Shown here: in pieces, positions 24,411 to 32,761 of the stretch | Position numbering within the stretch: position 1 is the stretch's first letter | How the letters are laid out: each line of letters begins with the position of its first letter | Assembly (NCBI RefSeq): GCF_003852495.1 | Contig: NZ_QAJI01000009.1 | Coordinates: 4,800 to 60,392 of the forward strand | Reading direction: 5' to 3' | DNA: 55,593 bases | Source: Taibaiella sp. KBW10 | GTDB taxonomy: Bacteria > Bacteroidota > Bacteroidia > Chitinophagales > Chitinophagaceae | Program-made: the position numbers and the translations under genes | Notes under the pieces: model-generated | What the model was told of the DNA's origin: nothing | What the model saw: only the letters and a program-made list of their open reading frames with translations | The model's database searches: none

Positions 24411-25205
24411 TTACCTTGTGGCGATTTGTCTTGCTCTAATGGCTTGCCGGTTTACATAAAATTGAGTCCATGGTGCTGGATTTGGCCGGCCTTGTAGCAT
24501 AAATTGTACGGCAATTGAAAGGTCTAGGTTCGTTACATGATGCCACCAATATTGCGGAATATAAAGGAGCTCTCCGGCTTTCAGTTCTACTTCCAGAGAA
24601 GGAACCTCGAAAAAATCGGGATTTTGTAAATGATCGGGTCGCAGAAAATCGACCTGGCTCCAATTAGGTTTGGGTTCTGTATCCGGTATCGGATACAGGC
24701 TGTCATGAAAAGCCGGATCATATAAGGTTACGGATTTTCGCCCTTTAACAAGGCCCAGTAAGACCGGTAGACTATCCCAGTGCAGATGGGTCACCGTGCC
24801 TTCTGCTGCCAACCATAATGCCGTTGCCTGTAAGGTCTCTTTCGGGAAAAAACCGGGTGTGGCAATATCGTTAGCGGCTTTTTCAAGATCGTTGACAAAT
24901 AATCCCTGACTTAAAAAATAGTCTTTCTGCAATGCGCCATCCTGAGAAAGGTTTTCAATTAATTGAGTAAGATACATATTGACTGGCTTTGAACGGTCAA
25001 ACCGATGTTCTCCACCCTTGTGATGACATGCCGTAACCATTGTATTGCCCCACTGTTCCTCCAAATACTTAAGATTCCATTTCTGTATTGCCGGCCAATC
25101 GGTTAATATGTTCTCGAATATTGCCGGCTGATCGATAGTGGCGCGATAATGTTCAAAGGCATCGGTGGTCATACCTTTAAATTTGCGAAGCTTAATCTTT
25201 TTCAT
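24411..25205 (-). CDS. JmjC/cupin-8-type Fe(II)/2-oxoglutarate oxygenase of the RiPP-like cassette
   Basis: 264 residues from the ATG at 25205; a TTG start 21 nt upstream is possible. The cupin-8/JmjC core shows the metal site HWD (His142, Asp144 in VTHLHWDSLPVLLGLVKG) and the distal His in IPQYWWHHVTNLD (His222), with the Lys/Thr-containing GRKSVTLYDP segment used for 2-oxoglutarate. The N-terminus (KFKGMTTDAFEHYRATIDQPAIFENILTDWPAIQKW) is the standard family opening. Related enzymes hydroxylate protein side chains, and some act on RiPP precursors. It is the last gene of the cassette, 13 nt after the YcaO stop, so a precursor-modifying role is the best inference. Confidence 0.85.
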   Translation of the reverse strand: MKKIKLRKFKGMTTDAFEHYRATIDQPAIFENILTDWPAIQKWNLKYLEEQWGNTMVTACHHKGGEHRFDRSKPVNMYLTQLIENLSQDGALQKDYFLSQGLFVNDLEKAANDIATPGFFPKETLQATALWLAAEGTVTHLHWDSLPVLLGLVKGRKSVTLYDPAFHDSLYPIPDTEPKPNWSQVDFLRPDHLQNPDFFEVPSLEVELKAGELLYIPQYWWHHVTNLDLSIAVQFMLQGRPNPAPWTQFYVNRQAIRARQIATR

Positions 25206-25218
25206 GTCTTTGCGTATT

Positions 25219-26481
25219 TTATCCAAAAGGATGTGGGGTCATATTCAGGTTTGTTTCTTTTACACTTTCTGCATGGTCATTGACGCCATTCAGAAATGGG
25301 GCGAGTTGGGGGAAAAAGGAATCAGATTCTTTAGCGGGTGCATTGGGTATAATGATGCGGTATACGTGCCAGCCCATATTACGGGTTACTTCGTCCGTTA
25401 CATTTATGGCAATAACCTCACTTTGAAAACACTCGTTTGCTGCGCAGACAAGTTCGTGTAAGGTTTTTGGTGTTGCGGTTGAGACAATACCAGAGGCTTG
25501 CCGTGCATGCTTTAGATACCAGTCCCTGATAAGCGGGCCGTTTTGATACCCGCGTATGACGTGCTCCAAAGAACTACGGGGTTGTGCTATAAGAGCTGAT
25601 TTATTGGCCCTCATCAGCCGTACGGTATATTGCAACATCAGGGCCTCTTCAACTGCTTTTTCCAGCGATCTGGTATCAGAAAGGCCACATGCGGAACCGA
25701 TGGTTAATTCAGTGCCATCTTTTTTGCTCACCAGGGCGAGCATCGTATCCGGCAGCCCATCTGTTTTGATCGCGAATAGATCGGCCATAAAATTCATTTC
25801 TTTAAGCAGTGCCCAATAGGGTGTATCCTGTTCTGAAAGAGAAATCTTATGTATTTCCGTATTCGGGTCCCGCCATGATCGAATGCAGGCGCTTCGCTCA
25901 ATAACTTCCAGGAATGCCCTCATCATAGCGTCTTCCTGGCTTTGGCCGGCAGCCAGGCCGGTGGCTCCTGGCCTCATGAATATACTTTCATGCTCAGACG
26001 GTGTCCAGCATAAATATGCGGCGAGCGCGGGTACATAGATATTCTTTTGGTTTACTAAATCGGTTCCGGTACACCAGGAAAGCAGATTTATATCTGCATT
26101 CTGAAAAGCCGGGGGAATTTGCTGGCTTGGATGGAATTGTTGCAGCCTTGAGGGCGCAATTGCGGGTACCCCGTCTTGTTGCAAGGCTGAAAAGCTTGTA
26201 CAGACCAGGTTCATTGGATTTAAGCCTGCCTGAAAGGCGCTGACTCTTTCGATCAATTCACCCATCGCTCTGAGGCGTACGGCTGATTCATTTTGACCAC
26301 AGGCAGCACCTGTAATCATTTGTCTTTTGCCTGAGTTCGCATTGGCGGGAAAATGATTTGCCGCCGCCGCCGTTCTGCCCAGCAAAATTTCATTCATGCC
26401 ATCGAATAGGGGTCGAACATCCACCATTTCTCCGGAAAAGAAACAACCTTTAGGGTCTGGTATATTTTGCTTGTCAGTCAT
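25219..26481 (-). CDS. YcaO-domain ATP-dependent peptide-modifying enzyme
   Basis: 420 residues from the ATG at 26481; a GTG start nine codons upstream is less likely. The YcaO ATP/Mg motifs are all present: ExxER in RAMGELIERVSAF (Glu75-Arg79), a second ExxER in AFLEVIERSACI (Glu192-Arg196), and Glu278/Gln284 in LEKAVEEALMLQ. The C-terminus ends in PHPFG, like the Pro-rich tails of azoline-forming YcaO enzymes. Characterised members use ATP to activate backbone amides and make azolines, thioamides or amidines. Its ATG overlaps the E1-like gene by 8 nt, the classic pairing of azoline-forming systems. No TfuA gene is adjacent, so thioamidation is less expected. Confidence 0.92.
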   Translation of the reverse strand: MTDKQNIPDPKGCFFSGEMVDVRPLFDGMNEILLGRTAAAANHFPANANSGKRQMITGAACGQNESAVRLRAMGELIERVSAFQAGLNPMNLVCTSFSALQQDGVPAIAPSRLQQFHPSQQIPPAFQNADINLLSWCTGTDLVNQKNIYVPALAAYLCWTPSEHESIFMRPGATGLAAGQSQEDAMMRAFLEVIERSACIRSWRDPNTEIHKISLSEQDTPYWALLKEMNFMADLFAIKTDGLPDTMLALVSKKDGTELTIGSACGLSDTRSLEKAVEEALMLQYTVRLMRANKSALIAQPRSSLEHVIRGYQNGPLIRDWYLKHARQASGIVSTATPKTLHELVCAANECFQSEVIAINVTDEVTRNMGWHVYRIIIPNAPAKESDSFFPQLAPFLNGVNDHAESVKETNLNMTPHPFG

Positions 26482-27601
26482 GTTGTGCTGCTTTAGTGCC
26501 ACAAACACGGCAACGGGTATCCCTTAGGAAAGGTTTCTTTACAATCGAGGGTACAGAAGAAAAATCAATAGTCAGTACAGCGTTCTGCACATTGCTCTCC
26601 ATGCCTGCCAGGAAATGAATACTTTCTTGAGCGAGCAAAGCGCCGCTAACCTGTAAGATAGGACTTAAGGATCCTGAATACGGCCGACCCATCTTTTCTT
26701 TCAATGCAATCATTTGTGCCGCGTTGGGGAATTGATCCAGAACCCGCGGCCAGTCACAGGCCGGACAAGCCGTCTCATTGGGGATAGTGAGCGGGCCTAT
26801 ACCGCGTCGATTACCGCGGATCATTGGGATTTGCAATTCATTACACACCTGCGATACCCAAACCGAAATCTGCCAGGTAGGCGTATCAGCAGTGAGTATG
26901 ACTAAATCAACAGCAGCGATAGAAGTAAACAGTGTTCTAAGCGTATCTTCATTATCGATTAATAACGGGATACCGTCAAATTGGGTCACCTCTTTATGCT
27001 TACTGATAAATGCGGCAGCAACCTCCGTTTTTGTCTTGCCTATATCTGATGTGGTAAACATTGTAGCCCGGGCAAGATTGTGTGTCTCTACAACATCCAT
27101 ATCAACTCCGGTGATTTTTCCAATACCGGCGGCAGTAAGATGCGGGATAACGGATGTGCCCAGACTACCGAGTCCAAGCATCAGTACATGAGCTTGCCTG
27201 ATGTCTTGCAACAGCTGATATTTAGAACGCTCTGCGGGTGCATGTTTATCGAAATAAGCCAATTGCTTTTCAAAACGGCTGTACATCCAATCGCTCATGT
27301 CCGCACGATTGTCTTCCTCAACCTTCAACAGGCCAAGTTCTTCCAAGGTATTAATGAGTTTTAGGACTATTTCTTTCCAGTTTGGGTGCTGCGCTTCGGG
27401 TACCGCCATTAAGGCATGTACACTGGTTCCTTTTGTGAGGTATCTTACAGCTGGTAATAACAAGGTTCCGAAGTCCTTCAGCAGATAACCTTTATTGCCC
27501 GTTTTGAACAACCATATTTCTGAATCCGTCACGGGAAAGGGATGAAAAGACGGATCGATGCTCAGTTTGCCTAGATTAACCCTGTCCGTCGCGGCAATCA
27601 T
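26474..27601 (-). CDS. E1/ThiF-like YcaO partner protein with N-terminal recognition-like region
   Basis: 375 residues. Residues 1 to about 95 resemble a small winged-helix RiPP recognition element (SEIWLFKTGNKGYLLKDFG ... LINTLEELGLLKVEED). The rest is an E1/ThiF fold: nucleotide loop LGLGSLGTSV (GLGSLG at 143-148), GVDMDVVETHNLAR, and two zinc-binding CxxC pairs, Cys279/282 (CPAC) and Cys364/367 (CRVC). In azoline RiPPs such partners bind the leader peptide and present it to YcaO; many no longer adenylate. It overlaps the HExxH gene by ATGA and the YcaO gene by 8 nt, indicating tight co-expression. Confidence 0.88.
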   Translation of the reverse strand: MIAATDRVNLGKLSIDPSFHPFPVTDSEIWLFKTGNKGYLLKDFGTLLLPAVRYLTKGTSVHALMAVPEAQHPNWKEIVLKLINTLEELGLLKVEEDNRADMSDWMYSRFEKQLAYFDKHAPAERSKYQLLQDIRQAHVLMLGLGSLGTSVIPHLTAAGIGKITGVDMDVVETHNLARATMFTTSDIGKTKTEVAAAFISKHKEVTQFDGIPLLIDNEDTLRTLFTSIAAVDLVILTADTPTWQISVWVSQVCNELQIPMIRGNRRGIGPLTIPNETACPACDWPRVLDQFPNAAQMIALKEKMGRPYSGSLSPILQVSGALLAQESIHFLAGMESNVQNAVLTIDFSSVPSIVKKPFLRDTRCRVCGTKAAQHD

Positions 27602-28617
27602 GCTACTATGTTGTTGGCGGTAAGTTCTTCCATGAATATATGACCGGAGGTGGTTAGCTGAGCATGATTTTGTACCACGTCAAATCCGACGGTCAAGTTT
27701 TGTTGAATCTTATCCAGTTTTGAGTCGATTGTAATATTATTCTTTAAAGAAAGATCATATCCATTCCGGGGAAGGGTATGTACATTCGTAAAGAATTTCT
27801 TGAGCCTTAGTAATACAAACATTTGGTGGAATACACCAAACATTGGACGACGATCGGGGCGAAGGGGAGACGTAAATAATTCCGAGTCCGGGTTGCTGAA
27901 AAGTGGGTTTAAGGCATGCATGGCGTTCAGGCGCATATGGCTGCATTCATGAATCAATTCTTCCGCAAATTGTAATGGCGTCCGAATCGCACTTTCCCGT
28001 AGCCAAATAGAGCCATGAGATCCGAAATCGACAAATCCGATCACTTTTTCGCTTTTGAAAATAAAGAGTTGCTTTAGGGTTACCTTTATTTCCGCGAGCA
28101 TTTCCGGCCAGAAATTTTGTATAATTTTAATGCCTTCTCTGATAATAAACTGCAAATCTTCTTCCAGATCTGTCAAGACCTCGATTTCACAATCCGTACC
28201 ATTGGCTTTTTTGGCCATTAAGATAGCTTTTTTAATGGTGGGCATCATGGCATCCTGAGCAGGAGCAATGTCTATGACCACATCATATTGACTTTGCAGC
28301 TCCTTTGCTCTTGATTGGCTTGCACTTGCTGCTTCCAGCGCGTGCTCCCATCTCTCTATGAAAACGGGCCAATCAATCTCCTGGTTATTTGCTGCTTTTA
28401 CACCATTGTACCACTGGAAGATAGCGGGGTGGCAATTACTTGTTCTTGTGCGTTCTAAAAGTGCATGTACCTTGCTGGTAAATGCGATATCTATATTGCT
28501 GATCCGTTTTGAAACGGCATCGCAAATCCATTGCTGCAGTGCAAGGTTTTCCTGCTCCGATTGAAGGGGAGCAGGTAGCCAAGCATGGAGTGTTGTTGAG
28601 CGTATATTACGATGCAT
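27598..28617 (-). CDS. Alpha-ketoglutarate HExxH-type putative peptide beta-hydroxylase
   Basis: 339 residues. The metal motif HECSH lies at residues 223-227 in FAEELIHECSHMRLNAMHALNP, followed by SPLRPDRRPMFGVFHQMFVLLRL. That Arg-Pro-rich, His-containing downstream segment (His264) is shared by the HExxH family known from RiPP clusters. Characterised members, including fusions to radical SAM enzymes, are 2-oxoglutarate-dependent peptide beta-hydroxylases rather than proteases. It starts 14 nt after the precursor peptide stop and overlaps the E1-like gene by ATGA. A free-standing HExxH protein beside YcaO and E1-like genes is unusual. A peptidase role is possible but less likely. Confidence 0.82.
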   Translation of the reverse strand: MHRNIRSTTLHAWLPAPLQSEQENLALQQWICDAVSKRISNIDIAFTSKVHALLERTRTSNCHPAIFQWYNGVKAANNQEIDWPVFIERWEHALEAASASQSRAKELQSQYDVVIDIAPAQDAMMPTIKKAILMAKKANGTDCEIEVLTDLEEDLQFIIREGIKIIQNFWPEMLAEIKVTLKQLFIFKSEKVIGFVDFGSHGSIWLRESAIRTPLQFAEELIHECSHMRLNAMHALNPLFSNPDSELFTSPLRPDRRPMFGVFHQMFVLLRLKKFFTNVHTLPRNGYDLSLKNNITIDSKLDKIQQNLTVGFDVVQNHAQLTTSGHIFMEELTANNIVA

Positions 28618-28631
28618 ATATCTCTTTTAAA

Positions 28632-28820
28632 TTAGTCTGCGTATTCCATTTGAAGTAAAACACCGAAGTCAGGTAGTTGGTCTGCCTGCACCTGCTTAAC
28701 ATTGTTTTTAGAGAATACCTGGTCAGCTTGTTCGTTGCTAAGAACGTATTGTGCTGCTTGATCTGATGGGATTTGGTAAAGCTTACCATTTTCTCCGCGT
28801 AATGTGAGTACGTCTGCCAT
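28632..28820 (-). CDS. Putative RiPP precursor peptide
   Basis: 62 residues, first gene of the cassette. The start is the ATG at 28820 with a weak ribosome site. Residues 1 to about 35 look like a leader: MADVLTLRGENGKLYQIPSD followed by an acidic, Gln-rich amphipathic stretch. Residues 36-62 (FSKNNVKQVQADQLPDFGVL then LQMEYAD) would be the core. There is no Cys anywhere; the only Ser/Thr are Thr6, Ser19, Ser28 and Ser37, so a C-terminal core cannot form azolines. Size, position 14 nt before modification genes and lack of any enzyme motif support the call. It could instead be a small accessory protein. Confidence 0.68.
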   Translation of the reverse strand: MADVLTLRGENGKLYQIPSDQAAQYVLSNEQADQVFSKNNVKQVQADQLPDFGVLLQMEYAD

Positions 28821-29010: not shown

Positions 29011-29089
29011 ATTATTTGAACAAGAGGGGATGTTCCGTATTGAGAGAGAAATGTTTCCATACGATCGGAATAATACCGATATATTTTAC

Positions 29090-29122
29090 AAAAGGCGATA
29101 CCCCGTAGAGATATCGCCTTTT
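29090..29122 (-). terminator. Terminator of the 845-residue T9SS gene
   Basis: AAAAGGCGATA pairs perfectly (11 bp) with TATCGCCTTTT across an 11-nt loop, about 54 nt after the stop codon; the minus strand ends the stem in TTTT. Confidence 0.7.
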
Positions 29123-29175
29123 ATAAAATGGATGGTGAATCAATACTATGGTATTGATCTTTTCTGTAAAAATAA

Positions 29176-32077: not shown

Positions 32078-32761
32078 TTATAAATCATCCAACTGAACGA
32101 TCCCGTTTTTTAAGGCAAATTTGATAATGCCGGCCAGGTTCTTTGCCCCGATTTTTTTGGAAATGTTATTCCGGTATTGCTCCACCGTGCGTTCCGAAAG
32201 GAAAAGGTGTTTACCGATTTCCTTGGCAGTCTGCTGGCGGCAGAGCAGCCGGATCAGCTCCAGTTCTTTACCGGAAAACTTTGTATTGGCAATAAGATGC
32301 TTCATGGCAAGATCATCATTGGCATCAGAAAAACGATTGATGATATGGTTGCGGGCTTCTCTGCAAAAATATTCCTTGCCTTCCATAATCAGTGCCACAC
32401 TGCGTATAAATTCTTCGTCATCTTCTTTTTTGATCACATAACCATTTACTCCGGCCTGAAGCATACGAAGTATGGCCTCCGGAGCATAAGAAAAAGAGTA
32501 GGCCAGAATCCGTGTGTTTGGTAATTTAAATTTTAATTCCCGCACCAGCAGGTCACCTGTGGTATCCGGGAGGGTATAGTCTATAATAACAAGATCCGGG
32601 AAGTGCTGTAATGCAAGACTCATACCGGTAGCGCCTTCATGAGCCATGTCGAATTGCGTAAACATTTTTCCGACCACCAGTTTAATCCCGTTGGCAACCA
32701 TTTTATGATCATCGATCACCAGTACCCGGTTGTATTGTACCGTATATTGTTCCTTGTGCAT
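32078..32761 (-). CDS. NarL/FixJ-family response regulator
   Basis: 227 residues: receiver with Asp17-Asp18, phosphoacceptor Asp61 in LVIIDYTLPDTTG and Lys in GYVIKKEDDEEF, then a LuxR-type helix-turn-helix (CRQQTAKEIGKHLFLSERTVEQYRNNISKKIGAKNLAGIIKFAL). It is the cognate regulator of the TPR-type histidine kinase just upstream on the same strand, 45 nt away. The target genes are unknown; the neighbouring T9SS genes are candidates only by proximity. Confidence 0.9.
   Translation of the reverse strand: MHKEQYTVQYNRVLVIDDHKMVANGIKLVVGKMFTQFDMAHEGATGMSLALQHFPDLVIIDYTLPDTTGDLLVRELKFKLPNTRILAYSFSYAPEAILRMLQAGVNGYVIKKEDDEEFIRSVALIMEGKEYFCREARNHIINRFSDANDDLAMKHLIANTKFSGKELELIRLLCRQQTAKEIGKHLFLSERTVEQYRNNISKKIGAKNLAGIIKFALKNGIVQLDDL

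Follow-up and report, generated by a model that had tools for sequence, protein, structure and literature searches.

In the 55,593-nt stretch of Taibaiella sp. KBW10 DNA analysed here (contig NZ_QAJI01000009.1; hereafter the window), we read with fair confidence a five-gene cassette at positions 24411–28820 as an operon for a ribosomally synthesized and post-translationally modified peptide (RiPP), of an HExxH–YcaO type acting on a core that is free of Cys, Ser and Thr. The unit kept elsewhere appears to be peptide–HExxH–YcaO, and the window cassette is probably a distant, more elaborate relative of the type as it occurs in actinobacteria. All five genes lie on the minus strand, in the order candidate precursor peptide (62 aa; 28632..28820), alpha-ketoglutarate HExxH oxygenase (339 aa; 27598..28617), ThiF/E1-like protein (375 aa; 26474..27601), YcaO (420 aa; 25219..26481) and cupin_8/JmjC oxygenase (264 aa from its ATG; 24411..25205). 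A gap of 14 nt follows the peptide gene, HExxH and ThiF overlap by 4 nt, ThiF and YcaO by 8 nt, and 13 nt separate YcaO from JmjC; coordinates, order and packing (overlaps, or gaps of 14 nt or less) are those of the original prediction, made from the sequence alone. Its idea of a single RiPP-like pathway with the 62-residue peptide as plausible precursor is likewise supported, HExxH–YcaO and a similar peptide recurring together in distant genomes.

The HExxH protein scored 83.8 bits against TIGR04267 (cut-off 40) and carries the predicted His223-Glu224 and His227 in the motif HECSH (residues 223–227; 27937..27951, minus strand). Its predicted model (pLDDT 79) matched ChlH (8s5f) by Foldseek with E 9e-11 and TM 0.69, so that by family score and model it classes as an alpha-ketoglutarate HExxH oxygenase with a ChlH-like fold; a plain metalloprotease, the other candidate, was ruled out by the TIGR04267 match and that fold. 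The YcaO protein matched PF02624 (E=1e-34) and scored 109 bits against the SagD model TIGR03604, under its cut-off of 219. The JmjC protein matched Cupin_8 (PF13621, E=2e-39), has JMJD5 and FIH as its best solved matches, and contains the predicted triad of His142-x-Asp144 and His222. TIGR04267, YcaO and Cupin_8 each had one match genome-wide, all in the cassette.

Relatives of the HExxH–YcaO pair came to light in two independent plasmid searches. The window HExxH protein matched six of 72,556 plasmid records, among which those from Streptomyces microflavus and Embleya have a YcaO gene directly downstream of HExxH; the window YcaO, searched against the same records at E<=1e-10, found these same two (at E<=1e-3 there were 32 records, the third-best at E 1e-9). 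An alignment of the window, S. microflavus and Embleya HExxH proteins then served as query for one scan of 84,980 species genomes, in which 394 stretches matched and 11 encode a relative, all of them actinobacterial. Together with the two plasmids these make 13 loci (L016, L017 and L020–L030) from Streptomyces, Nocardiopsis and Embleya, and in all 13 a YcaO match follows HExxH and a short open reading frame (ORF) lies directly upstream of it. The predicted co-occurrence of peptide, HExxH, E1-like, YcaO and cupin_8 genes is thus borne out in part: within the clade, the first, second and fourth are found together rather than apart, while ThiF and JmjC homologues of the window are not found with them. 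The Xenorhabdus TH1 and Pantoea plasmids (L018 and L019), also found by the HExxH search, have neither YcaO nor ThiF in their annotation or by tblastn; their HExxH genes lie near an MFS transporter.

Several further gene families are shared by the actinobacterial loci. Crude ORF clustering, which gives lower bounds, found a methyltransferase and an epimerase in at least 10 of the 13 each, glycosyltransferases in at least 9, a gene family represented in Embleya by a PhyH oxygenase in at least 6, and a P450 in at least 4. At L017:421-13124 and in similar Streptomyces stretches, the HExxH–YcaO pair lies among genes for glycosyltransferases, for nucleotide sugars and, in 7 of the 13 loci, for a DMFA2-like protein, which suggests that the product there is glycosylated.

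The window YcaO groups with those of the actinobacterial loci. A profile of 12 actinobacterial HExxH-linked YcaO proteins gave the window protein 163 bits and the best of 14 other YcaO proteins 72, and in the YcaO tree the window and these 12 make up one side of a branch supported at 99/99, with long branches noted. (L024, for want of a usable YcaO start, was left out of alignment and tree; of the 14 other rows, 13 are in the tree, L078 being scored by profile only, and three fused YcaO proteins, L068–L070, stand outside it.) The window YcaO ends in PHPFG (25222..25236, minus strand), and this PHP[FL]G terminus is shared by all 12 aligned actinobacterial YcaOs and by L024, and by none of the 14 others, of which 6 end in PHPFP and 9 in HP[FL]P. 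By profile, tree and C-terminus we assign the window YcaO to the actinobacterial HExxH-linked clade. Rhizobium plasmids L076 and L077 each have a cluster in which three YcaO genes accompany a single leader-binding protein and a single SagB-type dehydrogenase. For HExxH itself, a profile of the 13 actinobacterial proteins scored the window protein at 108.7 bits and the best of five others at 35.5.

Comparison of precursor candidates, which the original prediction had proposed, turned up a similar core upstream of the actinobacterial HExxH genes, with a modest match. The short ORFs there encode 24 to about 34 residues, some starts being uncertain (L016, L020 and L029 were aligned from in-frame codons that are not certain starts), and all 13 follow the pattern LP[ED].[AP]L[ML][VI]D.P, typically LPE-x-A-L-M-V-D-V-P. 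The C-terminal part of the window peptide is similar, reading LPDFGVLLQME at residues 49–59 (28644..28676, minus strand), while its residues 1–40, a proposed leader (28701..28820, minus strand), are missing from the actinobacterial peptides. The alignment holds the window peptide and 12 actinobacterial ones, L024 being omitted as its peptide was located later. Differences among the 12 actinobacterial core DNAs fall mostly at the third codon position (311, vs 169 at the first and 32 at the second), the pattern of a translated gene. Scored against a profile of the 12, the window peptide came joint first of 782 window ORFs, and 3 of 5,000 shuffles (3,590 of which were reported by the program) did as well. 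The sequence match and the placement before HExxH, which adds to it, are together suggestive, not proof, of kinship. Other searches with the window peptide gave little: no NCBIfam model and one sub-threshold Pfam model (E=0.08), no match at E<=1 among the plasmid records, nothing related in viral contigs, and, among 395 phylum genomes at E<=0.05, four genomes, namely itself and three weak ones.

The core is unusual in what it lacks. Cys, Ser and Thr are absent from its 11 columns in all 13 aligned peptides, Lys is absent from them as well, and the window peptide has no Cys anywhere, with Ser and Thr limited to T6, S19, S28 and S37, the nearest Ser being 12 residues before the core. With Cys, Ser and Thr missing from its target, the YcaO would need another nucleophile. 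Bottromycin contains a YcaO-made amidine, and YcaO enzymes activate backbone amides in several RiPP classes; by analogy a nitrogen nucleophile, from a Lys side chain or free amino group, might attack an activated backbone amide here, after or without hydroxylation. Such an amidine would suit a core free of Cys, Ser and Thr, but with no Lys in the core columns and the tie to HExxH left unexplained we consider it unlikely.

We instead propose, tentatively and with a good deal of doubt, that the hydroxyl is supplied by the oxygenase. At column 57 the window peptide has Gln and all 12 aligned actinobacterial peptides have Asp, and HExxH enzymes are reported, in the excerpted text of PMC13060819, to hydroxylate His, Asp, Phe, Gln and Pro; since Asp and Gln are both among these substrates, hydroxylation at this column would fit. 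In the proposed order, the ThiF-like protein would first bind the N-terminal part of the 62-aa peptide with its own N-terminal domain; the HExxH enzyme, using iron and alpha-ketoglutarate, would then hydroxylate a core residue, for which Gln57 is the best candidate; the YcaO, with ATP, would activate the neighbouring (preceding) backbone amide, and the new hydroxyl, acting as nucleophile, would close a substituted oxazoline, which is the least certain step; and the JmjC enzyme would add a second hydroxylation. Known RiPP ThiF enzymes activate carboxylates, and the ThiF-like protein may in addition do this at the C-terminus of the peptide. If so, this would be a new RiPP class, in which HExxH hydroxylates a residue other than Ser or Thr (Gln57; Asp in Streptomyces), a dedicated YcaO clade closes the ring and a live window ThiF adds a second ATP-dependent step at the C-terminus, with two ATP-using activators and two oxygenases on one peptide. 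We hold this full picture as doubtful, and no less so the hydroxylation-then-cyclization step taken by itself.

Whether the ThiF-like protein is catalytic bears directly on this. It matched ThiF (PF00899, E=8e-35), with MccB as best solved match (E 4e-20), then ThiF and MoeB, and contains the two predicted CxxC pairs (CPAC 279–282 and CRVC 364–367). The tree sets the window protein together with eight RiPP-type ThiF proteins and five E1-like proteins of azoline type, apart at 100/99 from 15 rows classed by us as housekeeping-type, which rules out a housekeeping ThiF/MoeB; inside the RiPP ThiF/azoline E1 group the tree gives the window protein no supported place. Its GLGSLG nucleotide-binding motif (residues 143–148; 27158..27175, minus strand) and NLAR, with R178, follow the GxGxxG and NLxR patterns found in all eight RiPP-type proteins and in none of the five azoline-type ones, and K191 and D239 are kept too. 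R178, K191 and D239 sit at columns invariant in the eight, and their counterparts in EnfB are named essential in the excerpted text of PMC12250964. Since it keeps ATP-site motifs that the azoline-type proteins lack, the window protein may be an active adenylator and not a docking protein. A docking role is also possible, since it passed the cut-off of TIGR03882 (TOMM leader-peptide-binding protein), narrowly, with 38.0 bits vs 36.9. An N-terminal recognition domain may be present: the alignment of the whole protein starts at residue 57, residues 1–115 by themselves align at 36.6% probability, and a single-sequence model (pLDDT 34) was discarded. The predicted 'E1-like partner' narrowly passes TIGR03882 but differs from azoline partners in its kept nucleotide-binding motifs, with MccB as its best solved match.

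These features would also suit a reading, compatible with our HExxH–YcaO operon, in which the main change is made by ThiF: the C-terminal carboxylate would be adenylated and captured within the peptide (as a macrocycle or imide) or by another nucleophile, with YcaO and the oxygenases decorating the product. The MccB match and the three ATP-site residues fit it, as does a Streptomyces hirsutus plasmid (NZ_CP109265.1; L037:6427-15577), also found by the HExxH search, on which YcaO is absent from the annotation and ThiF lies directly downstream of HExxH; the genes there run, one after another, hypothetical small protein, HExxH, ThiF, MFS transporter, TldD-related peptidase, and a split dehydratase given as lantibiotic dehydratase and thiopeptide-type protein. 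On the other hand, the window has Ala179 where all eight RiPP ThiF proteins have Gln after NLxR, TIGR03882 is passed, and the tree gives the protein no supported place among RiPP ThiF and azoline E1 proteins; we regard catalysis by ThiF as the main change as possible, though not what we expect. On Thermus thermophilus plasmid pTHTHE1601 (L042) a ThiF-like gene has a MATE transporter gene and two genes for SagB/ThcOx dehydrogenases as neighbours.

Returning to the HExxH–YcaO operon, several observations weigh against it. Only two of the five HExxH plasmid records examined, from the six found, have YcaO. The species scan was biased, two of the three query rows already having YcaO adjoining HExxH, so the 13 of 13 describes a clade and not HExxH at large. 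The window ThiF and JmjC proteins have no match in the 13 loci at E<=1e-3, so their part in the pathway is argued from operon layout, and in the window ThiF intervenes between HExxH and YcaO. The HExxH tree puts the 13 actinobacterial proteins on one side of a branch and the window with the five others on the other, where it has no supported place, with long branches. The peptide similarity is short and weak by itself (5.5 bits, E 0.72), and one unrelated window ORF ties with it. No transporter or protease gene adjoins the cassette, by our reading of the neighbourhood, and the TIGR03882 match and Ala179 count on the same side. Finally, encoded nucleophiles are close at hand in most of the actinobacterial peptides, a Thr, Ser or Cys falling no more than five residues from the core in 10 of the 12; the exceptions are L029 and L030, and the window peptide too has none.

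That last count favours an ordinary azoline RiPP, as do the YcaO and TIGR03882 matches themselves; on this reading YcaO with a docking E1-like partner would cyclize S37 or an earlier encoded Ser or Thr, outside the core, and the oxygenases would be add-ons. The original prediction likewise had the YcaO/E1-like pair make azolines, and this plain form is weakened, since no such residue occurs in the core columns of any of the 13 peptides. Nor is one found near the core in L029, L030 or the Cys-free window peptide; the YcaO is under the SagD cut-off and apart in the tree from 13 other YcaOs, mostly of TOMM-type clusters; and no dehydrogenase gene lies within the cassette. We think an azoline product from these residues distinctly unlikely. 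The want of an adjoining transporter or protease, and the resemblance of the JmjC protein to JMJD5 and FIH, would agree with enzymes whose substrate is a cellular protein, as is possible for both YcaO and JmjC proteins, the 62-aa ORF then being a regulator or a chance ORF; but the peptide's position and core recur with HExxH–YcaO, and both the HExxH and the ThiF family are associated with peptide maturation, so we give this very little credence.

Set beside known systems, the HExxH–YcaO cassette shares parts with each. Like clusters for azol(in)e RiPPs (thiazole/oxazole-modified microcins, TOMMs, or linear azol(in)e-containing peptides, LAPs), it pairs a YcaO with an E1-like protein scoring above the TIGR03882 cut-off and has a small precursor-like gene, but it differs in the core without Cys, Ser or Thr, the kept ThiF nucleotide-binding motifs, the lack of a dehydrogenase and the YcaO ending in PHPFG. 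With the ThiF-like adenylyltransferases of RiPPs (microcin C MccB, pantocin PaaA, GrcB, EnfB and IndF) it shares the family and the ATP-site residues R178, K191 and D239, but the window protein is partnered by YcaO and two oxygenases and has Ala for Gln after NLxR. The HExxH oxygenases of RiPPs (ChlH, PflC/PosC, BipH and PesO) resemble the window enzyme in passing TIGR04267 and in predicted fold, but their partners in the published excerpts are radical SAM, MNIO or asparagine-synthetase-like enzymes, not YcaO, ThiF and JmjC. The actinobacterial loci have the same HExxH–YcaO pair and a similar core. They differ in having no match to ThiF or JmjC, in their short peptides, which lack the N-terminal 40 residues, and in the methyltransferase, PhyH-type and P450 genes noted above.

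The original prediction had taken two unrelated 2-oxoglutarate oxygenase families combined with a YcaO/E1-like pair to be seemingly undescribed. For the oxygenases by themselves, JmjC plus HExxH in one RiPP pathway is already known: biphenomycin has the hydroxylases BipG (JmjC) and BipH (HExxH), together as in the window (PMC12707348, excerpted text), although the bip cluster also has an MNIO, a radical SAM enzyme and an arginase, and the term YcaO is absent from that paper's main text. The full set with YcaO and ThiF we did not find described. In open-access full text (most subscription journals lie outside it) we found no description of a YcaO–HExxH pair, or of JmjC and HExxH with YcaO and ThiF; in the papers listed there that mention YcaO, HExxH and RiPP together, the mentions concern other systems or are references. 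We thus did not find an earlier description of the HExxH–YcaO RiPP type in that literature, and its chemistry could be new. According to the excerpted text of PMC12150305, the IndF survey left out clusters with YcaO, treating ThiF there as a docking domain only; the cassette calls this genome-mining filter into question.

The whole cassette looks rare. The window HExxH protein found, at E<=1e-3 among 195 family genomes, itself and a 25% match with stops that we take as chance, and, at E<=1e-6 among 395 phylum genomes, itself only; three genomes of the same genus (G031, G125 and G192) had no HExxH match. An HExxH profile run against 395 class genomes at E<=1e-4 gave the window and two weak stretches, one on a 3.4-kb contig, and neither matched the window YcaO. 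The E1-like protein, at E<=1e-15 against the phylum genomes, found itself and nine genomes at 59–69 bits, aligned within residues 122–369. Viral contigs scanned with the YcaO, the HExxH profile and a YcaO profile gave no match.

Between the upstream gene and the cassette lies a strong, near-perfect hairpin (29070..29150, minus strand; fold z-score -8.3 vs shuffles), with flanking genes on the same strand, that may be the terminator of the upstream gene. A scan for consensus promoters and terminators gave no clear signal (6 terminator-like sites vs a shuffle mean of 4.8) and did not list this hairpin. Given the hairpin upstream and the overlapping or near-touching genes, the cassette is likely a separate transcription unit. 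Secreted proteins nearby have, by our reading, sorting-signal-like C-termini, which points to Bacteroidota, and a response regulator at window 32078-32761 has a second copy, 85% identical, elsewhere in the genome (G000:C1:739563-740243). In stretches of two same-genus genomes, 1 of 21 window genes (the cassette's five included) was matched, and no empty site could be read.

YcaO enzymes are usually seen as forming rings only where Cys, Ser or Thr is encoded. If the hydroxylation-then-cyclization proposal is true, a hydroxyl supplied by an oxygenase would let further kinds of residue form rings, and the enzyme pair responsible, found in named Streptomyces strains, would be readily testable.

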